This document shows positions 796-9,716 of a DNA stretch of 12,428 nt, one piece after another (within the stretch, counting starts at the first letter, position 1; the number at the start of each line of letters is the position of its first letter). A program made the translations under genes and the position numbers. The stretch is from contig JASIGD010000394.1 in assembly GCA_030045295.1 (NCBI GenBank), positions 1 to 12,428 on the forward strand, read 5' to 3'. This DNA is from Streptosporangiaceae bacterium. GTDB lineage: Bacteria; Actinomycetota; Actinomycetes; Streptosporangiales; Streptosporangiaceae. The notes below the pieces were generated by a model, which was not told the DNA's origin, made no database searches, and was given only the letters and a program-made list of their open reading frames with translations.

Positions 796-1821
796 TTAGT
801 GGGCGCTGGAAGCGGCCCAGATGTTGATGCCGGCGTCCACCGCGTCGCGGTCGATGTCGGCCAGCTCGTCCTCGGTGAACTCGGTGTGGTCGGCCGCGGC
901 CAGGTTCTCCTCCAGCTGCGCGACGCTGCTGGCGCCGATCAGCGCCGACGTCACTCGCGGATCACGCAGCACCCAGGACAGTGCCATCTGCGCCAGGGTC
1001 TGGCCGCGGGCCGCGGCGATCCCGGCCAGCGCGCGGACGTGCGCCAGCGTCCGGGGCGATATCTGGTCCGAGGACAGCGACCCGTTCAGGCTGCCCCGCG
1101 AGCCGGTCGGCACGCCGTCGAGGTACTTGCCGGTGAGCACGCCCTGGGCCAGCGGCGAGAACGCGATGCAGCCCACGCCTTCGCGGCCGAGCACGTCAAG
1201 CAGGCCGCCCTCGATCCAGCGATTGAGCATCGAGTAAGACGGCTGGTGGATGAGCAATGGCGTGCCCATACGACGGAGCAGGGACACGGCATCCACCGTT
1301 CGTTCGGCAGAATAAGAAGAGATACCCGCGTAGAGCGCCTTGCCAGACTGAACCGCGGTATGCAGCGCGCCCATCGTCTCCTCGAGCGGGGTATCGGGAT
1401 CAAAGCGGTGCGAGTAGAAGATGTCGACGTATTCCAGGCCCATCCGGCGCAGTGACTGGTCGAGGCTGGCCAGCAGGTACTTACGGGAGCCGTGGTCGCC
1501 ATAGGGGCCTGGCCACATGTCGTAGCCGGCCTTGGTGGAGATGATCAGCTCGTCTCGGTACGGCCGAAGGTCCTCCCGCAGGATCCGGCCGAAGTTGATT
1601 TCCGCGCTGCCGTACGGAGGCCCGTAGTTGTTGGCCAGGTCGAAGTGCGTGACACCTAGGTCGAACGCGCGGCGCAGGATCGCACGCTGATCCTCGATCG
1701 GCTTGCCATCACCGAAGTTCTGCCACAGTCCGAGCGATATCTCCGGCAGCAGCACCCCGCTGCGCCCGCAACGGCGGTAGCGGAGCTTGTCGTAACGGTC
1801 ATCAGCGGCGACGTAAGCCAT
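796..1821 (-). CDS. mgrA: Aldo/keto reductase, L-glyceraldehyde 3-phosphate reductase (YghZ) type
   Basis: A 341-residue NADPH-dependent aldo/keto reductase with a cytosolic TIM barrel. It aligns from end to end with E. coli YghZ/Gpr, which reduces L-glyceraldehyde 3-phosphate and other aldehydes such as methylglyoxal. Shared blocks include ITHFDLANNYGPP, ISTKAGYDMWPGPYG, EYVDIFYSHR and LIHQPSY. The catalytic tetrad is visible as D61, Y66, K97 and H138. The C-terminal cofactor region carries SVLIGAS-like SALIGAS (292-298), and the end (IWAASSAH) matches the family's end. The ATG start is supported by this alignment, although no good ribosome binding site precedes it (GACAGACTTTCTCGC). It diverges from the DUF6295-like gene, with 122 bp between starts. 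The family is certain; the physiological substrate in this organism is inferred. Confidence 0.93.
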   Translation of the reverse strand: MAYVAADDRYDKLRYRRCGRSGVLLPEISLGLWQNFGDGKPIEDQRAILRRAFDLGVTHFDLANNYGPPYGSAEINFGRILREDLRPYRDELIISTKAGYDMWPGPYGDHGSRKYLLASLDQSLRRMGLEYVDIFYSHRFDPDTPLEETMGALHTAVQSGKALYAGISSYSAERTVDAVSLLRRMGTPLLIHQPSYSMLNRWIEGGLLDVLGREGVGCIAFSPLAQGVLTGKYLDGVPTGSRGSLNGSLSSDQISPRTLAHVRALAGIAAARGQTLAQMALSWVLRDPRVTSALIGASSVAQLEENLAAADHTEFTEDELADIDRDAVDAGINIWAASSAH

Positions 1822-1943
1822 GCGAGAAAGTCTGTCACCGCCGTCGCCCGGGTCCGACGCTGGCCGGCGCGGCGGCCGGGCCGGAGGACCCCGAGCGCGG
1901 CCGGGCGCTGCCTGTTATCGTCCTGACTGGGAGAGGAGTCGCC

Positions 1944-2207
1944 ATGTGCACGTACCTGACGGAAAACGTATCGATCAGCGGCAGCGGGAAAGGCCCGGCC
2001 GGCTGGTTCAAGGTGACCGACGCGAGCGTGTACTTCGACCACCCGGTGCACGCGCAGGCGGAGCACACCCTGAACATTGACTTCCTTGACCCGGAGGCCG
2101 GCCCGTCGGCGCGCGTCGCGGTGGAACTCACCGCGGAATCGGCCCTCGCCCTGGCGAAGGCGATCCAGGCCACCCTCGACGCCGCGCCCCCCGGCCTGAT
2201 CCGCTAG
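1944..2207 (+). CDS. Small DUF6295-like protein
   Basis: An 87-residue soluble protein beginning MCTYLTENVSISGSGKG, with no signal peptide or membrane segment. The ATG is preceded by GGGAGAGGAG (core AGGAG at 1934-1938, 5 bases before the start), so the start is secure. The sequence looks like the small actinobacterial family catalogued as DUF6295. That family shares the MCTYLTE start, a WF-x-V-T-x-A-x-V-Y-F-D-H-P block (here residues 21-35), a THTLNIDF-like strand and a C-terminal helix ending near APPGL. The assignment is from memory. Its function is unknown. The conserved Cys2 and the H-x-x-H-like spacing (HPVHAQAEH, 34-42) could bind a metal, but this is speculation. It lies 205 bp upstream of the clamp gene on the same strand and probably has its own terminator. 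Confidence 0.85.
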   Translation: MCTYLTENVSISGSGKGPAGWFKVTDASVYFDHPVHAQAEHTLNIDFLDPEAGPSARVAVELTAESALALAKAIQATLDAAPPGLIR

Positions 2208-2212
2208 TCCCG

Positions 2213-2253
2213 GCCGAACCCCGGCCCGGTCACCCAGTCCTGCCGAACCCCGG
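2213..2253 (+). repeat. Pair of 12-bp direct repeats (GCCGAACCCCGG)
   Basis: GCCGAACCCCGG occurs at 2213-2224 and again at 2242-2253. Each copy is preceded by AGTCC within a few bases, giving an imperfect tandem unit of about 29 bp. The first copy begins 6 bases after the stop of the DUF6295-like gene. The function is unknown; slippage in the non-coding spacer is the simplest origin. Confidence 0.6.
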
Positions 2254-2299
2254 GCCGACCCGCCCGCCGGTGACCGCGCGGCCAGCCGGCCCGAGCCCT

Positions 2300-2318
2300 G
2301 GGTCCCGAGCCCGGACCC
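2300..2318 (+). terminator. Possible hairpin terminator between DUF6295-like gene and clamp gene
   Basis: A 6-bp perfect stem pairs GGGTCC (2300-2305) with GGACCC (2313-2318) around a 7-base loop. It lies 93 bases after the upstream stop and 38 bases before the clamp promoter motif. It could isolate the two transcription units. There is no U-run. Confidence 0.3.
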
Positions 2319-2345
2319 TAAGCGCCCGGTCCCTAAGCGCCTGGT
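2316..2345 (+). repeat. Two tandem 15-bp repeats upstream of the clamp promoter
   Basis: CCCTAAGCGCCCGGT (2316-2330) is followed at once by CCCTAAGCGCCTGGT (2331-2345), with 14 of 15 bases identical. The pair ends 5 bases before the GGAAATGTCAGTG promoter element. Position and exact tandem arrangement would fit a regulator-binding site, but replication slippage is equally possible. Confidence 0.65.
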
Positions 2346-2350
2346 CCCCT

Positions 2351-2377
2351 GGAAATGTCAGTGCCTCGTGCGAGTAT
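2351..2377 (+). promoter_or_regulatory. Candidate DNA-damage promoter (RecA-NDp/PafBC type) of the clamp gene
   Basis: TGTCAGTG (2356-2363) is followed by 8 bases and then GAGTAT (2372-2377). The actinobacterial RecA-independent damage promoter is tTGTCRgtg-N8-TAnnnT. All eight fixed positions of the upstream box from TGT onward fit, and the -10-like hexamer keeps A at position 2 and T at position 6 but has G at position 1. The preceding bases GGAAA are shared with the second copy at 8743-8755. A start near 2384 would leave a leader of about 29 bases containing AAGGGAGG. The match is seen; PafBC control is inferred. Confidence 0.6.
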
Positions 2378-2412
2378 GCGTGTGAAGGTACCCGCGAAGG
2401 GAGGCGGCAGGA

Positions 2413-3690
2413 ATGCGGTTCGTGGTGGAGCGCGACGCGCTGGCTGAGGCGGTGGCCTGGGTAGCGCGCTCGCTGCCGTCCCGGCCCGTGCTCCCGGTCC
2501 TGTCCGGGCTGCTGCTCGAGGCGGCACCCGACGGGCTGACCCTCTGCTGCTTCGATTACGAGGTATCGGCCAGGATCGCGGTGGACGCGGACGTGGCCGA
2601 GCCGGGGACCGTGCTCGTTCCCGGCAGGCTGCTGGCCGAGATCACCCGCAGCCTGCCGGGTCTTCCCATCGAGGTCGACGACGCAGATGACGTGACCTTG
2701 ACGTGCGGCGCGGCGTCGTTCAGCCTGGTGACGCTGCCCATCGCGGAGTATCCGCAGCTGCCCGACCTGCCCCGGCTGGCCGGCACCGTCGACGGCGGCG
2801 TGTTCGCCACGGCGATCAGCCAGGTCACCCCCGCGGCAAGCCGGGATGACACGCTGCCCATTATCACCGGGGTGAATGTCGAGATCGAGGGGGACAGCAT
2901 CACGCTGGTCGCGACCGACAGGTATCGGCTGGCCATCCGGGAACTCGCCTGGAGTCCTGCCCGCGCCGCGGGCACCGGCACGCTCCTCGTCCCGGCCAGG
3001 ACACTGGCCGACGCGGCCCGGATGATGGTGCCCGGCGTCCCCGTCCGGATCATGACGCGCGAGGCGGGCGGGTCCGGCGGAGCCGGGACCGCCGAGGGTG
3101 ACCGCGCCGGCGCGCTGCGCGCAGCCGACGCGATGATCGGCTTCGAGGCCGGGGGGCGCCGGCTCACCACGCGCCTCATCGCGGGGGAGTACATCAAGTA
3201 CAGCTCGAAGTTTCCCGCGGACTTCGGCAGCTGCGGGGACATGCCGGCGGGTCCGCTGGCCGAGGCGGTCAGGCGGGTCGCACTCGTGGCCGAGCGGGGA
3301 AGCTCGGTGCGGCTGTCGTTCGGGCCGGGGAAGGTCATCATCGAGGCCGGCACCAAGGGCCAGGCCCGGGCCAGGGAGATCGTAGCGGCCGACTTTTCCG
3401 GTGACGAGTCCGCGATCGCGTTCAGCCCGCACTACCTGCTCGACGGGCTCGGTGCTGCCCTCATCGCGGCCAACGGCCTCGCCGCCCCCGCCCAGAGCTC
3501 CCAGGGCGCCCAGGGTTCCGAGAAGGCCGAACGGGACGGGCCATCAGCCCCCGACGAGGGACGCATCCGCCTGCAGTTCACCAGCCCCACCAAGCCAGCC
3601 CTGATCACCGGCAGCGTAAAAGCCGGCGACGAGTCGGCGCCCGATTTCCGCTACCTGGTTGTGCCGCTGCGCGCCCTGACCAGCGCCTGA
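2413..3690 (+). CDS. dnaN: DNA polymerase III sliding clamp (beta subunit), probable second copy
   Basis: A 425-residue sliding clamp; as a ring-shaped dimer it tethers DNA polymerases to DNA. The three clamp folds fall at about 1-120, 125-265 and 270-425. Close family blocks include MRFVVERDALAEAVAWVARS, FDYEVSAR (47-54), DDTLPIITGV (145-154), VATDRYRLAIRE (166-177), RRVALVAER (287-295) and TSPTKPALITG (390-400). The start is set by AAGGGAGG (2397-2404), 8 bases before the ATG. Unlike a housekeeping clamp gene, it is not beside dnaA, recF or gyrB. Two Gly/Ala/Ser-rich inserts (about 217-240 and 349-384) and a C-terminal extension past the usual YLIMPVRL-type end (here YLVVPLRALTSA) lengthen it beyond the family's usual 365-380 residues. 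A damage-type promoter motif precedes it. Clamp identity is certain; second-copy status is inferred from context. Confidence 0.93.
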   Translation: MRFVVERDALAEAVAWVARSLPSRPVLPVLSGLLLEAAPDGLTLCCFDYEVSARIAVDADVAEPGTVLVPGRLLAEITRSLPGLPIEVDDADDVTLTCGAASFSLVTLPIAEYPQLPDLPRLAGTVDGGVFATAISQVTPAASRDDTLPIITGVNVEIEGDSITLVATDRYRLAIRELAWSPARAAGTGTLLVPARTLADAARMMVPGVPVRIMTREAGGSGGAGTAEGDRAGALRAADAMIGFEAGGRRLTTRLIAGEYIKYSSKFPADFGSCGDMPAGPLAEAVRRVALVAERGSSVRLSFGPGKVIIEAGTKGQARAREIVAADFSGDESAIAFSPHYLLDGLGAALIAANGLAAPAQSSQGAQGSEKAERDGPSAPDEGRIRLQFTSPTKPALITGSVKAGDESAPDFRYLVVPLRALTSA

Positions 3691-3694
3691 CCGG

Positions 3695-4159
3695 CTAAGG
3701 CCGTCCCGGAGGGCCCGGGAACTGGCCCGGCCCGGGCCAGTAGGCGTGACGAGACATCCAGGCCATGATCAGTATCCAGGTAGCCAGCGCGAACAGCAGC
3801 AGCGCGAAGACCAGGAAACGGCCCGCGTCCGGGTCGGACTCCGACCGGGCCGACTCGGTGCGGTCGGCCTTGAGCGGCCGGGGCAAGTCAGCCATCAGGC
3901 GATCGATCTGGCCCTGGGTCTTCGCGGCGAGCGCGAGGTCGATGCGCTCGGTCAGCTCGTCGAAGGTCAGGCGGCCGGCTGCGAAGTGCTCGCGCAGTTG
4001 GACCATCGCCGCGTCGCGCTCTGCGTCCCCGATCCGCAGATCGTAGTCGTACCGGCTGTGCCCGGGCACGCGCCATCCCGGTACCAGCTGCTCACGCGGT
4101 TGCCCCGCGTCGGGATCCTGTTCTAGCATTCCACTTCGGACGTCGTATCGCCTCGTCAT
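3695..4159 (-). CDS. DUF1707 domain membrane protein
   Basis: A 154-residue protein of unknown function. The DUF1707 domain (residues about 41-93, LRIGDAERDAAMVQLREHFA through LMADLP) is a helical domain found at the N-terminus of many actinobacterial membrane proteins. It is followed by an acidic/polar linker and one membrane helix (about 114-135, FLVFALLLFALATW). A short Pro/Gly tail (PGPGQFPGPPGRP) ends the chain. The domain is preceded by a 40-residue polar extension. The ATG at 4159 has only a weak GGAAA upstream, and the internal ATG at residue 11 is a possible alternative start. It lies 145 bp after another DUF1707 gene on the same strand, and its stop is 4 bp from the clamp gene's stop in convergent orientation. 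Confidence 0.85.
   Translation of the reverse strand: MTRRYDVRSGMLEQDPDAGQPREQLVPGWRVPGHSRYDYDLRIGDAERDAAMVQLREHFAAGRLTFDELTERIDLALAAKTQGQIDRLMADLPRPLKADRTESARSESDPDAGRFLVFALLLFALATWILIMAWMSRHAYWPGPGQFPGPPGRP
3722..3740. terminator. Hairpin at the clamp/DUF1707 convergent junction
   Basis: A perfect 7-bp stem pairs CTGGCCC (3722-3728) with GGGCCAG (3734-3740) around a 5-base loop, 31 bases past the clamp stop. It lies inside the last codons of the convergent DUF1707 gene. It could end clamp transcription, but overlapping coding constraint (the Pro/Gly tail) is an alternative explanation. Confidence 0.35.
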
Positions 4160-4304
4160 CGGGTTTCCGGGTTCGCCAAGCCGACTTGCCTCTTTTCAAC
4201 CATAAGTCGGCACGGCCCGGCGCGGAACCCAGGTAGCGCAGATTCAGTGGCGGTCCGCCGACCAGAGCCGGGGGCGCGCCCGCCGGCCAAGGCAGCGGGC
4301 CCCC

Positions 4305-4853
4305 TCAGAAGCGCGGGCCCCTGGGTCCCCTGGGTCCTCGCGGGCCTTTCGGACCCCTCTGGCCGCCGTTGCCCCTGCGCCGCGCCCCGAACCCGAACAA
4401 CCGTCTGATGAACGCGAGCGCCGCGATGATCAGCACAATGGCCAGCGGCCTGTCCCCGCCGCTGCCGAACAGCATGACGGCGCCCAGGATCACGAACACC
4501 CACACCAGGCCCATCAGCGGCGCGAAGGCACCTGACGGCCTGCCCTGCCGGCTGTTCCCGGTGCCGGAATCCCAGCCGGACCCCCCGGGCCGGGCCGACG
4601 CTGGCCAGGACGGCCCCTGCCACGCGGTGTTGCCGACGCTCCCGGGCGGCACCCCGCCGACCGGCCGCGCGGCGGGGGGCAGGTCGCGCAGCACCGTGGT
4701 CAGGTCGGCACTGGTCTTGGCCGCGAACGTCTGGTCGAGGCGTTCGTTGAGCTCATCGAACGTCAGCCGGCCATCGGCGTAGTGCTCACGCAGCTGGGCA
4801 GCGACCGCATCACGGTCGGCGTCCCCGACACGCACGTTGAATCCTGTTGCCAT
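4305..4853 (-). CDS. DUF1707 domain membrane protein with collagen-like Gly-Pro-Arg tail
   Basis: A 182-residue protein. The DUF1707 domain occupies residues about 6-60 (VRVGDADRDAVAAQLREHYA through LRDLPP). A Gly/Pro/Ser-rich linker (60-108) follows, then two membrane segments (about 112-130 and 137-151), so both ends should face the same side. The chain ends RRRGNGGQRGPKGPRGPRGP and then RF, which gives six consecutive Gly-X-Y triplets with Pro at X and Arg or Lys at Y in most. The ATG is preceded by GGAGGG (4858-4863 on the + strand), 4 bases away, so the start is firm. It is the first gene of a tandem pair of DUF1707 genes. Candidate operator palindromes lie 20-60 bp upstream. The function is unknown. 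Confidence 0.88.
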   Translation of the reverse strand: MATGFNVRVGDADRDAVAAQLREHYADGRLTFDELNERLDQTFAAKTSADLTTVLRDLPPAARPVGGVPPGSVGNTAWQGPSWPASARPGGSGWDSGTGNSRQGRPSGAFAPLMGLVWVFVILGAVMLFGSGGDRPLAIVLIIAALAFIRRLFGFGARRRGNGGQRGPKGPRGPRGPRGPRF

Positions 4854-4872
4854 CGTGCCCTCCGTAGCAGAG

Positions 4873-4885
4873 CGCGGAATCCGCG
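4873..4885. promoter_or_regulatory. Short perfect palindrome before the DUF1707 gene
   Basis: CGCGGA (4873-4878) and TCCGCG (4880-4885) form a perfect 6-bp inverted repeat around one base. It lies 20-32 bp before the DUF1707 start codon, between the ribosome binding site and the larger palindrome. It may be an operator or a small leader hairpin; chance is possible in GC-rich DNA. Confidence 0.3.
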
Positions 4886-4893
4886 TGCCTCCA

Positions 4894-4913
4894 CGATATA
4901 TCGCGAGACATCG
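4894..4913. promoter_or_regulatory. 20-bp imperfect palindrome, candidate operator
   Basis: CGATATATCG, itself a perfect palindrome, is followed directly by CGAGACATCG. The two halves form an inverted repeat with 8 of 10 positions paired, and also read as a direct repeat with 8 of 10 identical. It is the most AT-rich spot in the region, 41-60 bp upstream of the DUF1707 start. This is where a repressor would overlap a promoter. ATATATCG-type operators are familiar for PadR-like regulators, but no such regulator gene is in the window. Confidence 0.5.
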
Positions 4914-4966
4914 GACAGCAAGCCGAAAGGCCCGCTTCGCCAGCGCGTCGTGCCCGCCCGGCGGCT

Positions 4967-4986
4967 TTGGCTAAGACACCAGCCAA
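4967..4986. repeat. Inverted repeat TTGGCT / AGCCAA
   Basis: TTGGCT (4967-4972) and AGCCAA (4981-4986) are perfect complements around 8 bases. They lie 58-77 bp upstream of the small frameshifted gene. This could be an operator or weak leader hairpin. The rest of 4914-5030 shows no gene. Confidence 0.3.
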
Positions 4987-5043
4987 GGTGACCGCCCAGG
5001 CCTGATCATGTTCCCGCCGGCCTTTTTCACGGAGGGGAAAGCC

Positions 5044-5269
5044 ATGGGAAAAGACCCTGGCCGGAATCCTGGCCGCCGCGGGGCTCTCGCTGGCCGGTCT
5101 GACCGGCACGCTGAAGAATTCAGCGCAGGCTCTGCTGAAACGGCTGCGCCAGGACGCGTACACCGACCTCGTGGCGCTGGCCGTGCAGACCGCTCCGCCG
5201 CCGCCGAGGAAGTCGGATCTGCAGAATGCGATCAGCCGGCGTGAGCTGACGCCGGCCACTCCGAACTGA
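5044..5269 (+). pseudogene. Small helical protein gene with an early frameshift
   Basis: GGAGGGGA (5031-5038) stands 5 bases before ATG at 5044, so translation should start there. After three codons (M-G-K) the ATG frame changes to Arg/Gly-rich sequence with poor codon bias and runs to 5244. From 5054 the next frame is clearly coding: 71 codons to TGA at 5267-5269, with about 85% G or C in the third position. It encodes a hydrophobic stretch (TLAGILAAAGLSLAGL), an amphipathic helix (LKNSAQALLKRLRQDAYTDL), a Pro-rich hinge and a basic tail (ISRRELTP). That frame has no ATG, GTG or TTG of its own. Removing one base in GGGAAAAG (5046-5053) would give a 74-residue product. It may be a mutation, a sequencing error, or, less likely, recoding. 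I recognise no family. Confidence 0.6.
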
Positions 5270-5304
5270 AGGCCGGGCAGACGGCGCCCAAGCGACCCGA
5301 CGCG

Positions 5305-5847
5305 TCAGCCTGCGGCCGCGACTCTCACCGCGGCCCGGATGGCGTCCTCAACGCCCTCCAGCGGAAGCTTGCCGTCGATGCGCTGACCATCGACGTAGAA
5401 CTTGGGGGTGGCGTTCACGCCATCACGGACGCCTTCTTGCACGTCACGCTGGATCTTGGCGGCGTGGGCGTTCCCCGTGACTTCGGCCCGGAACCGGTCA
5501 AGGTCCAGGGCCAGGCGCTCGGCGTAGCCAACCAGCGAGCCGAGGTCGAGTTGGGATGCTGGCTGCAGCAAGAGCTCGTACATGCCCCAGAACTTCCCCT
5601 GGGCCGCGGCCGCCTCGGCGGCCTCGGCGGCCTGCTCCGCCTGCGGGTGAAGCTGCGGGATGGGGAAGTTCCGGAACACGAACCGGACCGTGCCGGGATA
5701 ACGATCGAGCATTTCGTGCACGTCCCGTGCCGCCCCCCGGCAGAACGGGCACTGGTAATCGCCGTACTCGAGGACGGTGACAGGCGAATCGGGCGGACCG
5801 AGCACATGGTCATCGGCGGTGATCTCAGGTGCGTCCAACGTCTCCAC
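5305..5847 (-). CDS. DsbA-family thiol-disulfide oxidoreductase, cytosolic
   Basis: A thioredoxin-fold protein of up to 180 residues. The active-site CPFC motif is at C33-C36, within VLEYGDYQCPFCRGAARDV. A helical insert follows (about 65-140). The cis-proline loop is NATPKFYVDG (T147-P148). There is no signal peptide or membrane anchor, so it probably acts in the cytoplasm, unlike classical DsbA; its partner is unknown. The annotated start is GTG at 5847, but GGAGG directly abuts that codon. The TTG at 5838 (residue 4), 9 bases after the same GGAGG, fits better, which would make the protein 177 residues. It is divergent from the universal stress protein gene, with 138 bp between the starts, a pairing compatible with redox or stress roles. 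Confidence 0.88.
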   Translation of the reverse strand: METLDAPEITADDHVLGPPDSPVTVLEYGDYQCPFCRGAARDVHEMLDRYPGTVRFVFRNFPIPQLHPQAEQAAEAAEAAAAQGKFWGMYELLLQPASQLDLGSLVGYAERLALDLDRFRAEVTGNAHAAKIQRDVQEGVRDGVNATPKFYVDGQRIDGKLPLEGVEDAIRAAVRVAAAG

Positions 5848-5985
5848 CCTCCGTCAGCAGACTGCGTTGGTGGCCAGGCTATGGCAGTGGCCGAGCCAGC
5901 GTGCGGGCGGATGCCGAACGCGGTACGCGCGGCCCGGCCGGGCGGTAGGCTCCGACCTGCGAATCATCGAGGCTAGGAGCGGACG

Positions 5986-6453
5986 ATGACTGCAGAACCC
6001 GGTAGCGGCGAGGCCCGGATCGTCGTCGGCGTCGACGGATCAGGGCATTCCCTGCAGGCCCTGCGATGGGGCGCCCGGCTCGCCGCGGTATTCGGCGCGC
6101 GGGTTGACGCGGTAACCGCCTGGGAATTCCCGGCCGCCTACGGGTGGTCGGCCGTACTGCCAGATTGGGACCCGGCGGGGGACATGCGGCACGTTCTGGA
6201 CGACAGCGTGCGGGCCGTCTTCGGCGACTACCCGCCGGCCGGGTTGCAGCGGCAGGTGCTCGAGGGCGGCGCGGCCAAAGTCCTGCTCGACGTCAGCCAG
6301 GGCGCGGTCATGCTGGTTGTCGGCAGCCGCGGGCACGGGGGTTTCGCCGGGCTCCTGCTCGGCTCGGTCAGCGCGAACGTGGCCGAGCACGCCCCGTGCC
6401 CCGTGCTGGTCATCCACGGCGACCAGGCAGAGCCGCCAGCGCCGTCCACATGA
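5986..6453 (+). CDS. Universal stress protein (UspA family)
   Basis: A 155-residue single-domain universal stress protein, cytosolic, with the nucleotide-binding subfamily signature. The first strand carries VVGVDGS with D17, and the phosphate-binding motif G-x2-G-x9-G-S/T is seen as GSRGHGGFAGLLLGS (G113 to S127). The end, APCPVLVIHG, is typical. Family members with this motif bind ATP and respond to hypoxia, stasis or other stress. The ATG is preceded by AGGAG (5975-5979) with 6-base spacing. TAGGCT at 5946-5951 could be a -10 element, but I see no clear -35. It converges on the methyltransferase gene with a 13-bp gap between stops. Confidence 0.93.
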   Translation: MTAEPGSGEARIVVGVDGSGHSLQALRWGARLAAVFGARVDAVTAWEFPAAYGWSAVLPDWDPAGDMRHVLDDSVRAVFGDYPPAGLQRQVLEGGAAKVLLDVSQGAVMLVVGSRGHGGFAGLLLGSVSANVAEHAPCPVLVIHGDQAEPPAPST

Positions 6454-6466
6454 CCCGCATCCCCGG

Positions 6467-7057
6467 CTACGGGTAATCCTCAGCCCTCCGGTGTCCCGAA
6501 GGTGCCGTGGACAGGCGTACGACCAGGGCGTCGAGCATGCGCGTGTCGCTCGGCACCGCGGCTCGCTGCATGTGCTCGATCTGCCAGCCGGCGAACGTGT
6601 CGCGGATGACCGCTTCGTCGATGTCGTTGCGCACGCCCGCCGCCCGCAGGCTGGCTCTTAGCAGCAGTTTTCCGCCCGGCCGCAGGACACGGCCGAGCTC
6701 GTCGGCGTACCGCGAGCGGTCGCCGGCCGCAAGGTAGTGAAAGCAGCCCCGGTCCAAGGCGGCGTCCACGCTATGGCGGCCGAACGGCAGCTGGCGTACG
6801 TCCGCTCGCAGCAGCGCCGGACCGTCATGCTCGGCTGCCGCCCGGGCCACGGCCGCCTCGGACAGGTCGACGCCGGCCACCTGCCAGCCGGCCGAGGCGA
6901 GGTATCCGGCCTCGCTGCCCAGGCCGCAACCCACGTCCACGGCGCGACCGCTGCGGGGCAGCCAGGCATCCTCGAGCGCCGAGACGAGCTCGGGCGAGGG
7001 CCGCGACAGGTGCCACCACCGGTAAGTCCCGTCGGAATAGTGGTCGGCCACGACCAC
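6467..7057 (-). CDS. Class I SAM-dependent methyltransferase
   Basis: A 196-residue protein with a single Rossmann-like methyltransferase domain. Motif I is AVDVGCGLGSEAGYLA (about 39-54). The acidic residue that binds the SAM ribose is in GVDLS (D64). Motif II-like ADVRQLPF (85-92) and the post-motif LRPGGKLLLRASL (about 125-137) follow. The N-terminus HYSDGTYRWWHLSRPSPEL looks like a substrate-recognition segment. The start is GTG at 7057, with GTG at 7051 possible; neither has a strong ribosome binding site. It starts 22 bp after the exporter's stop on the same strand, so co-transcription and possible coupling are likely. The acceptor is unknown; pairing with an exporter suggests a small molecule. 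Confidence 0.87.
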   Translation of the reverse strand: MVVADHYSDGTYRWWHLSRPSPELVSALEDAWLPRSGRAVDVGCGLGSEAGYLASAGWQVAGVDLSEAAVARAAAEHDGPALLRADVRQLPFGRHSVDAALDRGCFHYLAAGDRSRYADELGRVLRPGGKLLLRASLRAAGVRNDIDEAVIRDTFAGWQIEHMQRAAVPSDTRMLDALVVRLSTAPSGHRRAEDYP

Positions 7058-7079
7058 AGTCTCGCCGATCAGCGCCTGC

Positions 7080-8546
7080 TTACCCGCCCATCGCAGCCGA
7101 CCGCCGGGCCGCCGCCACCGTCCGGGCCAGCGGAATCCCCGCTACTACGCCGAGCACCATCGCCGCGGCCAGCCACTCCAGCGTGACCCCCAGCGCGTGC
7201 CCGGAGACCGCCGGTACCGTGCCCCCGCCGTCCCCGTCCAGCGTGAGGAACAGGCTGCCGAACGTCGCGACCCCCACCGCCTGCCCGAGCTGGATCGTGG
7301 TGGTGAGCAGCCCGCTCGCGTCGGCCGCCTGGTGCAGCGGCACCCGCACCAGCGCGTGCGTGACCAGAGGGCTGAAACCCAGCGCGAGCGCCGCGCCGGT
7401 CACGACCAGCGCCACCTGCAGGTGCCAGCCGCCCTGGCCGCCGGAGCGCAGGACTTGCGCGACGGCCAGGTAACCGCCCACCGCGACCAGGCAGCCGAGC
7501 GGGGCGAGCAGGTGATGCGACCGGCCCGGGAGCCGCCGCCAGAAGTACCCGCACACCCCGAACACCAGCGCGCACGGCGCGAAGGTCAGCCCCGCGCGCA
7601 GCGCGCTGTCCCCCAGCCCCGCCTGCAGGTGCAGCGCGAAGCTGAACAGGAAACCGCCGTAGGTGATCATCAGCACGGCCACCGCGGCCAGGCCGGGCAC
7701 CAGTCCGGGGGCGCGCAGCACCTCCAGGTTCAGCAGCGGGTCCCCGCCCCGGCCCGCGATCCGCCGTTCCACGGCGACGAAGACGCCGGCCAGGATGAGG
7801 CCCAGGGCGATGCACCCGAACACCCACGCGGGCCAGCGCTCCTGGTGGCCGAGCATCAGCGGCAGCACCACCAGGAACACCGCGGGTACCGCGATGGCCA
7901 GGCCGGCCAGGTCCAGCTGCCGGCCGCCCGTGGGTGAATCGCGCGGCACTACCCGGGGCACCAGGGCCAGCACCGCCAGCCCGATCGGCACGTTGACCAG
8001 GAACACGGGCCGCCAGGCCTCGCCGAACAGGTTCGCCGTCACCAGCACGCCGCCGATGACCTGCCCGGCGACGAACCCCGAGGACAGCACGGCCGTGTAC
8101 GCGCTCAGCGCCCGCGCCCGGGCGGCGCCGTCGAACCGCACCTGGATGACGCTCATGATCTGCGGCATCATCGCCGCCGCCCCCGCGCCCTGGACGAACC
8201 TGGCGGCGATGAGAATCTCGATCGTGGGCGCGATTCCGCAGATCAGCGAGGCGAGCGTGAACACGGCGACCCCGGCCATGAACATCCGCCTGCGCCCGTA
8301 GAGGTCTCCCATCCGCGCCCCGGTGATCAGCAGCATCGCGTAGCTCACCGTGTAACCGGCCACGACGAGCTGGAGCTCGGCTCCGGACGCGTGCTCGGAC
8401 CGGCCGATCGTGGGCATCGCGACGTTCACGATCGTGACGTCGAGCAGCGCCATGAACTGCCCGGCCAGCAGCACGATGAGCATCGGCCAGCGGCCCCGCG
8501 CGGCGGCCGCCGGATCCCGCACCGACCGATCGGTAGTCGTAGTCAT
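7080..8546 (-). CDS. MFS drug/H+ antiporter, DHA2 (EmrB/QacA-like) family
   Basis: A 488-residue inner-membrane exporter, the usual length for the 14-helix DHA2 group. Helix 1 carries the family motif MALLDVTIVNVAMP (32-45, with D36). The loop after helix 2 carries motif A, GARMGDLYGRRRMF (77-89). Helix 5 has the motif C-like GFVAGQVIGGVL. Fourteen hydrophobic segments can be followed along the chain. The family exports hydrophobic drugs or natural products using the proton gradient. The ATG at 8546 lacks a clear ribosome binding site and sits in the bulge of a long inverted repeat. A methyltransferase follows 22 bp downstream, and an MmyB-type regulator is divergent with a 243-bp intergenic region. 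That layout is typical of a regulator controlling its neighbouring transporter. Confidence 0.94.
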   Translation of the reverse strand: MTTTTDRSVRDPAAAARGRWPMLIVLLAGQFMALLDVTIVNVAMPTIGRSEHASGAELQLVVAGYTVSYAMLLITGARMGDLYGRRRMFMAGVAVFTLASLICGIAPTIEILIAARFVQGAGAAAMMPQIMSVIQVRFDGAARARALSAYTAVLSSGFVAGQVIGGVLVTANLFGEAWRPVFLVNVPIGLAVLALVPRVVPRDSPTGGRQLDLAGLAIAVPAVFLVVLPLMLGHQERWPAWVFGCIALGLILAGVFVAVERRIAGRGGDPLLNLEVLRAPGLVPGLAAVAVLMITYGGFLFSFALHLQAGLGDSALRAGLTFAPCALVFGVCGYFWRRLPGRSHHLLAPLGCLVAVGGYLAVAQVLRSGGQGGWHLQVALVVTGAALALGFSPLVTHALVRVPLHQAADASGLLTTTIQLGQAVGVATFGSLFLTLDGDGGGTVPAVSGHALGVTLEWLAAAMVLGVVAGIPLARTVAAARRSAAMGG

Positions 8547-8610
8547 GACACCAGGCTGCGCCCGCTCCCGCCGACATGCAGAGAGCCTGCTGATCCTGGT
8601 GTTACGACTA
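8534..8610. repeat. Interrupted inverted repeat spanning the exporter start codon
   Basis: TAGTCGT (8534-8540) pairs with ACGACTA (8604-8610), and ACACCAGG (8548-8555) with CCTGGTGT (8595-8602). This gives 15 matched pairs. The interruption on the exporter-proximal side is AGTCATG (8541-8547), which holds the start codon (8544-8546); on the far side only one base (8603) is unpaired. In the exporter mRNA this would be a hairpin with the AUG in an asymmetric bulge. As DNA it could be two operator half-sites about 40 bp apart. Confidence 0.55.
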
Positions 8611-8742
8611 CCCGGCTATCACTATTTTGTCCCGAACGGACGCCGGTGCGTGCCTCGAGTCGGCTGCGCCTGGGCAGGTCGCGACCGGACCTGTCGCCCT
8701 TTGACCGCGGTTGACGTGCACCCGAACCCGTAAAACCCTTCC

Positions 8743-8769
8743 GGAAATGTCAGTGGTCACCGCTAGGTT
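8743..8769 (+). promoter_or_regulatory. Candidate DNA-damage promoter (RecA-NDp/PafBC type) of the MmyB-like regulator
   Basis: TGTCAGTG (8748-8755), then exactly 8 bases, then TAGGTT (8764-8769). This agrees with the actinobacterial damage promoter tTGTCRgtg-N8-TAnnnT at every fixed position except the leading lower-case t, which is A here. The 13-base string GGAAATGTCAGTG (8743-8755) is identical to the one before the clamp gene. Transcription would start near 8776, pointing into the regulator gene. The sequence match is direct; control by PafBC is inferred. Confidence 0.65.
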
Positions 8770-8789: not shown

Positions 8790-9716
8790 TTGGGAAAGCT
8801 CTTGGTTACGTACGAAGCAACGGCCTACAGAACCGCGGATTACGGAGCAAGCGAACTGGCCGCGCGGCGAGCGGGCGAGCGGCGCCGGGCTGAGCTCGGC
8901 AAGTTCCTGAAGGCCAGGCGGGCGCGGCTGAGCCCCGCGGACTTCGGCATGCCGCCCGGCTCGCGACGGCGCACGCCGGGACTGCGCCGTGAGGAAGTCG
9001 CGCTGCTCGCCGGGGTCGGCGTTACCTGGTACACCTGGCTGGAGCAGGGCCGCCAGATCAACGCCAGCACCCAGGTGCTGGACGCGGTGGCCCGCACGCT
9101 CCGCCTCGACCGGGCCGGGCGGGAGCATTTGTACCGGCTGGCCGAAGCGACGCCGCTGCGAAAGGGCTGCGCTCGCACGTCAGTGCCCGACGCCATCCGG
9201 GAGATCGTGTATTCGCTGGAGCCGCTGCCGGCGAGCCTGATCAACAGCCGGTTTGACGTCCTGCTGTCGAACCAAGCCTCCGAGGAACTGTTCTGGGAAT
9301 GGCACACGATGCCGTGCGTCCATAAGAACACGCTGTGGTGCTGCGTGACCGAGCCCAGCGCCCGCGCCAAGTTCCCCGATTACGACAGGCACGTCCGCTA
9401 CATGGTGGCGCGGTTGCGTTCCGCGTACGGCCTGCATGTCGGCGACCCGGACTGGGAAGAGGACATCCGCCGCCTGGCCAGCATGAGCCGCGAGTTCGCC
9501 GAACTGTGGGCGCGGCACGAAGTCGCTGATGCGGAGCCGCGCGCGCTTACCTACCTGCATCCGCGCGCCGGGTCGCTCACCTTGACCGTCAGCGAACTCG
9601 ACGTCCCGGACATGCCGGAAGCGCGAATCGTCGTCTACACGCCGCGAGACGACGACACCCGGGCCCGGTTGCCGCTGACCCGCGGGACCCCGGCCACCGC
9701 TCAGGTCACCGCGTAG
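8790..9716 (+). CDS. XRE-family transcriptional regulator with MmyB-like ligand domain
   Basis: Up to 308 residues. The N-terminal XRE helix-turn-helix (about 36-110) has the signature of MmyB-like regulators: LGKFLKARRARLSP, RRRTPGLRREEVALLAGV, WYTWLEQGR and a VLDAVARTLRL helix. The C-terminal MmyB-type domain (about 135-300) includes LLSNQASEELFWEW, YMVARLR and ELWARHEVADAE, and in relatives binds lipid-like ligands. The start is uncertain. TTG at 8790 and TTG at 8802 give an N-terminus with poor codon bias up to about 8855, while CTG at 8856 has GGAG 8 bases upstream and falls where GC-biased coding begins. There is no ATG or GTG before the conserved domain. It is divergent from the exporter operon, its most likely target, and has a damage-type promoter. 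Confidence 0.9.
   Translation: MGKLLVTYEATAYRTADYGASELAARRAGERRRAELGKFLKARRARLSPADFGMPPGSRRRTPGLRREEVALLAGVGVTWYTWLEQGRQINASTQVLDAVARTLRLDRAGREHLYRLAEATPLRKGCARTSVPDAIREIVYSLEPLPASLINSRFDVLLSNQASEELFWEWHTMPCVHKNTLWCCVTEPSARAKFPDYDRHVRYMVARLRSAYGLHVGDPDWEEDIRRLASMSREFAELWARHEVADAEPRALTYLHPRAGSLTLTVSELDVPDMPEARIVVYTPRDDDTRARLPLTRGTPATAQVTA

Follow-up and report, generated by a model that had tools for sequence, protein, structure and literature searches.

The window analysed here, a 12,428-nucleotide stretch of contig JASIGD010000394.1 from a Streptosporangiaceae bacterium, contains two exact copies of a 13-base element, GGAAATGTCAGTG, at 2351-2363 and 8743-8755 of the forward strand. Each lies directly upstream of a forward-strand gene, one encoding a second sliding clamp (2413-3690) and the other an XRE regulator (8790-9716). 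Comparison with related genomes makes it very probable that both elements are LexA/RecA-independent damage-response promoters (RecA-NDp), at which sigma-A RNA polymerase would act together with PafBC, and that they serve the second clamp and the regulator. Throughout the family sample, a damage-type promoter accompanies the second clamp gene and is all but missing from the main dnaN, a pattern that is wider and more interesting than the two sites from which the analysis started. A preliminary description of the window had reported the two copies and proposed the PafBC reading; its coordinates, letters and gene identities were confirmed, and the reading now draws support from recA, from sites at repair genes, from the presence of PafBC and from ortholog conservation in relatives.

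Two probable promoter elements in the window

In the accessible text of PMC8151990, RecA-NDp promoters consist of TGTCGG, TGTCAG or TGTCAC, ten further bases and TAnnnT. The element of the XRE gene, TGTCAGTG-N8-TAGGTT at 8748-8769 of the forward strand (in full, TGTCAGTGGTCACCGCTAGGTT), has the TGTCRG box, the ten further bases and the TAnnnT hexamer. The element of the clamp gene, at 2356-2377 of the same strand, is composed of TGTCAGTG (2356-2363), an 8-base spacer ending in TGC (2369-2371), and the hexamer GAGTAT (2372-2377). According to the preliminary description, both copies had a fitting -10 hexamer after exactly 8 bases; this is correct for TAGGTT, whereas in the clamp copy the box and spacing agree but GAGTAT lacks the first T and does not fit TAnnnT. 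The TGC had gone unmentioned and proved informative: we class the clamp element as a variant of the RecA-NDp type because TGn precedes the hexamer throughout its lineage, and its orthologs share this architecture.

A repeated 13-mer is by itself not rare in this window (71% GC), given that 25 are repeated on one strand compared with 11.1 per shuffle. However, GGAAATGTCAGTG is the only one of them with six or fewer G/C bases, and such a repeat arose in 0 of 60 shuffles. Allowing up to two mismatches, it has 2 matches in the window against 0.10 expected, a number reached by 1 of 200 shuffles, so that the earlier claim of a match beyond chance stands. Shorter patterns are weak evidence: the core TGTCRGTG occurs twice against 0.72 expected (a count attained in 37 of 200 shuffles), and TGTCR-N11-nAnnnT three times against 0.94, with one occurrence inside the clamp gene at 3314. 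The LexA box has the consensus TCGAAC-N4-GTTCGA. Matches to it with up to three mismatches number 11 in the window against 4.06 expected, exceeding all 200 shuffles (largest 10), and all are weak, one having two mismatches (4723-4738) and the others three. None of these matches overlaps either element; the nearest, at 2243-2258, lies about 90 nucleotides before the clamp element.

A damage-type promoter on second clamp genes

The clamp gene encodes a DnaN paralog of 425 amino acids with Pfam DNA_pol3_beta domains 1-3 and a TIGR00663 score of 220 bits (cut-off 137.65), and no DnaA was found among the scanned window proteins. For comparison, we used 61 genomes of the same family centred on Trebonia kvetii (L009, genome G001); the window's own genome lies outside this sample, and the genome-wide motif scans were run on the relatives. 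The best clamp-locus matches among genome contigs were mostly metagenome-assembled genomes of Streptosporangiaceae. The sample yielded 116 clamp loci after partial or weak matches were left out (among them G042, G020:C75, G024:C1:5702716, G008:C24, G059:C15 and G031:C1:2017556). Sixty of these have dnaA within about 1500 nucleotides upstream, and the 56 that do not come from 56 different genomes. The window clamp is a second clamp and not the dnaA-linked dnaN, and a second clamp was found in 56 of the 61 family genomes. In a quick tree of 117 clamps including the window's, made without bootstrap and with the root unknown, a single branch (SH-like approximate likelihood ratio test, 96) splits dnaA-linked from second clamps, and the window clamp groups with the latter. 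Its lineage has a median length of 432 amino acids compared with 378 for dnaA-linked clamps, and the window clamp shares 55% identity with the main DnaN of G001 over residues 3-348. A predicted structure of the window clamp was poor (predicted local distance difference test, 49.7; predicted template modelling score, 0.33) and was not used.

The two kinds of clamp differ sharply in what lies upstream. Within 200 nucleotides, TGTC-N12-nAnnnT is found at 54 of the 57 second clamps, counting the window's, but at only 1 of 60 dnaA-linked clamps, with dinucleotide shuffles giving means of 0.9 and 1.0, respectively. The stricter TGTC-N12-TAnnnT gives 39 of 57 against 0 of 60. Spacing is constrained too: the 12-base spacer accounts for the 54 second clamps and spacers of 8-11 or 13-17 bases for 0-4 of 57. 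The three second clamps that lack the pattern are near-misses, with a TTGGAT hexamer (L133), a CGTC box (L138) and a TATAAG hexamer (L220). An earlier set of 33 clamp loci, comprising partly the same genes, had a TGTC[AG] box within about 105 nucleotides in 30.

The hexamers of second clamps fall into two forms. All 15 without the first T, the window's included, have TGC or TGT directly before the hexamer, whereas TGn precedes it in none of the 39 with TAnnnT. Extended -10 elements are an established feature of sigma-A promoters, and TGn next to a hexamer without its first T is most naturally read as one. A separate case of the same exchange is an XRE ortholog (L067), which carries CTGC-GAGTAT at the position of the TAnnnT seen in its relatives. 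Across the family, AATGTCRG-N7-TGYSANKAT was matched 11 times, in 9 of the 61 genomes (control, 0); five sites precede second clamps (L345-L347, L351 and L352) and the rest other or unclear frames. Among the latter are an RmuC-like gene (L344; below the model cut-off) and a mycothiol-S-transferase gene (L349).

Beyond the family, 79 genomes of the class were scanned; 11 contain at least two clamp matches, and eight of these 11 are new. In those eight, 4 of 9 copies taken as non-main carry a perfect TGTCRGTG-N8-TAnnnT (L365, L367, L371 and L375). Two further copies, L372 and L376, were judged to be probable main dnaN and excluded because both resemble L368, even though no dnaA was observed there.

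Within the window's lineage, the clamp gene also has characteristic neighbours: the block of aldo-keto reductase, DUF6295, second clamp and DUF1707 genes (window 796-4853) recurs in L001, L004, L009, L031 and L360.

The motif at recA, repair genes and the XRE regulator

A recA match was obtained in 60 genomes (57 over the cut-off), and 30 loci were examined, of which L113 was unreadable. All 29 readable loci have TGTC-N12-TAnnnT within 250 nucleotides, 24 of them with TGTCRG, and a common form, GGAAAATGTCGGTG-N8-TAGCTT, resembles the window's 13-mer. Control loci at pafA carry the motif in 1 of 30 cases by the better reading, which is the one used (1 of 16 in a first reading).

The strict pattern GAAATGTCRGTG-N8-TAnnnT occurs at 44 sites in 26 of the 61 genomes, compared with 3 for the reversed-pattern control. 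Downstream frames were read for 30 of the 44, and Pfam was searched with 10 of the encoded proteins. Repair genes stand behind at least 9 of the 30: UvrB four times, RecA, O6-methylguanine (O6-alkylguanine) methyltransferase, an AlkZ-like glycosylase and two RNase_T-type exonucleases. RecA apart, Pfam confirmed a single protein of each kind, and the others were identified by eye. Another strict site is that of an XRE ortholog itself (L240). A looser pattern, TGTCRGTG-N9-AnnnT, gave 70 sites in G001 against 9 for the control. One genome (G053) has five strict copies, and the two of them that were read (L235 and L261) precede a protein that by eye resembles an IS200/IS605 OrfB. One strict site (L256) lies 38 nucleotides before a large protein that appears Cas3-like by eye.

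The presumed activator is also encoded in the family. PafB was found in 58 of 61 genomes, and PafA exceeds its cut-off in 58 of 61, the weaker PafA matches presumably being the related Dop. In G001, Pfam identifies PafB (WYL, WCX) followed directly by PafC (HTH_PafC, WYL, WCX). As far as the accessible part of PMC11804915 describes it, PafBC is activated by single-stranded DNA and works by sigma adaptation; the available portions of PMC6789036, PMC5087735, PMC9690074, PMC8223512 and PMC11139829 were also drawn on.

The preliminary description had suggested looking for the motif before recA, dnaE2 and similar genes. In the relatives, this was borne out for recA, UvrB and the other repair genes above, and it failed for DnaE2, most readable loci of which lack the motif in the stretch scanned, so that a DnaE2 link as a general rule was rejected. 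The counts behind this are given with the points against our reading below.

The regulator encoded at 8790-9716 combines HTH_31 (PF13560) with MLTR_LBD (PF17765), both over the cut-off, and is thus an XRE regulator with an MmyB-like ligand-binding domain. Its start codon may be TTG 8790 or TTG 8802, and 8802 is perhaps the better candidate because it aligns with VVTYEA of the ortholog L240. The element is present at the right spacing in all six orthologs of at least 65% identity (L064-L069), five with TAnnnT and one with TGC-GAGTAT. Among homologs below 51% identity (24 of the 30 loci read), TGTC-N12-nAnnnT occurs once and TGTCR in none.

A putative damage clamp, rival explanations and known systems

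The findings are compatible with the following course of events. DNA damage would expose single-stranded DNA and activate PafBC, a step that others have shown in mycobacteria, and active PafBC would in turn enable the housekeeping polymerase to transcribe from TGTCAGTG and its -10 element, switching on the second clamp and XRE genes. The second clamp, which probably split from the replicative DnaN early in the family, would supply or replace the clamp where forks are damaged or restarting and would recruit repair enzymes there, while the dnaA-linked clamp would stay under ordinary control. The MmyB-type regulator may in turn control the neighbouring transporter. The clamp promoter of the window's lineage would have exchanged the first T of its -10 hexamer for an extended -10 (TGn). 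A fuller version of this picture, which we offer tentatively as possible but somewhat short of probable, is that the second clamp of this family is dedicated to damage. It would be an ancient paralog of the replicative ring, scarce until PafBC becomes active, that swaps with or supplements the replicative clamp and, in the window's lineage, possesses its own partner pocket; its promoter would represent a second PafBC flavour in which an extended -10 takes the place of the first T.

The pocket is also where the foremost rival explanation finds part of its support. The second clamp could chiefly be an insensitive spare against clamp-binding antibiotics, its damage promoter being useful since such drugs damage DNA. 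The accessible text of PMC10817943 describes MypR and GriR as self-resistance DnaN copies in mycoplanecin and griselimycin producers, and identifies Met362 of E. coli DnaN as the pocket gate. The residue aligned with this methionine (an equivalence made by alignment only), in the C-terminal FRYLV-x-PLR motif, is valine in all 16 members of the window's lineage and methionine in each of the 59 dnaA-linked clamps that were readable, and a transporter and a regulator are nearby. However, the other second-clamp lineages mostly keep the methionine (37 of 41, with two glutamines and two unread), and a clamp present in 56 of 61 genomes and separated from dnaA-linked DnaN by one branch is unlike a mobile resistance gene. 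In addition, no biosynthetic cluster was seen among the open reading frames of the window, which spans only 12 kb. A spare clamp is therefore unlikely to be its chief role.

The second rival concerns the XRE site at 8748, which lies in the region shared with a divergent gene for an MFS transporter (7080-8546, reverse strand; Pfam MFS_1, DHA2/EmrB-like, with the EmrB subfamily as best NCBIfam match, below its cut-off). This gene is an obvious candidate target of the regulator, and the site might belong functionally to the MFS gene or be an operator of the XRE protein instead of an XRE damage promoter. Yet the site is directional, with its -10 towards the XRE gene, and its spacing is identical to that of the recA promoter. 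Moreover, while the MFS gene is adjacent and divergent also in L359, it lies at least 2 kb away in L354 and L356 and was not found at the ortholog locus L355, and the element is kept in these last three. We consider this rival improbable. That the two elements are chance matches or ordinary constitutive sigma-A promoters, for which the core count against expectation might be cited, is very improbable in view of the conservation, the fixed spacing and the near-absence from main dnaN and XRE paralogs.

Several observations nonetheless weigh against the promoter reading and its extension. The support consists of sequence comparison; the recA and pafBC evidence comes from relatives' genomes; and the sampled genomes are related, so their counts are not independent. 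The exchange of T for TGn in clamps may be a single event because all 15 clamps belong to one clade. Of the 30 strict sites that were read, roughly two thirds are followed by frames that are ambiguous or not recognisably repair genes, and 3 of the 10 proteins put to Pfam matched no family. Just 14 of 30 DnaE2 loci exceed the cut-off, corresponding to 14 of the 61 genomes, and among the 11 of those 14 that were readable, with up to 1500 nucleotides scanned, 1 has the motif and 10 do not. Outside the family sample, the motif is missing from 5 of the 9 presumed non-main copies, and TGTCRGTG-N8-CAGACT stands at -123 and -115 of the main dnaN in G079 and G099 (L366 and L370). Lastly, as stated in the accessible part of PMC9380542, conservation of the PafBC motif in S. 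venezuelae was not detected by a first search.

Bacteria are generally regarded as having a single, universal clamp that serves both replication and repair. The available text of PMC10421592 has the mycobacterial damage mutasome using the dnaN-encoded clamp. A second clamp in 56 of 61 genomes under a damage-type promoter, unlike main dnaN, would make clamp switching under damage directly testable, and if a dedicated damage clamp is real, bacteria would have a counterpart to the division between replication clamps and checkpoint/repair clamps. On comparative evidence, the range of PafBC-type promoters also includes a family distant from the mycobacteria, and a testable rule is suggested, in which an extended -10 is exchanged for the first T of the hexamer. 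Among the matches listed in a literature search on second or damage-inducible actinobacterial clamps, one that mostly did not extend to subscription journals, the accessible text described no damage-type second clamp, only DnaN copies for antibiotic self-resistance and, on a replicon of Embleya, a solitary dnaN (PMC13152386). This dnaN of Embleya EEC1, which lacks dnaA, is read in the available part of that paper as belonging to an incomplete chromosomal replicon, and it could be a damage-type second clamp.

Set against known systems, the window clamp shares all three clamp domains with dnaA-linked DnaN and differs in its greater length, the gate change from methionine to valine, its damage-type promoter and the absence of dnaA from the window. 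With GriR and MypR it has in common that it is a second DnaN copy. However, those lie in antibiotic pathways near transposase genes (PMC10817943, accessible text), whereas the second clamp is family-wide and, in the window's lineage, sits in the block of aldo-keto reductase, DUF6295, clamp and DUF1707 genes. The promoters resemble the RecA-NDp/PafBC promoters of mycobacteria and other actinobacteria in their TGTC box, fixed distance and -10 hexamer, in their occurrence on recA and repair genes, and in the PafBC encoded by the family. They differ in that the clamp copy of the window and its lineage has nAnnAT with a putative TGn extended -10 instead of TAnnnT.

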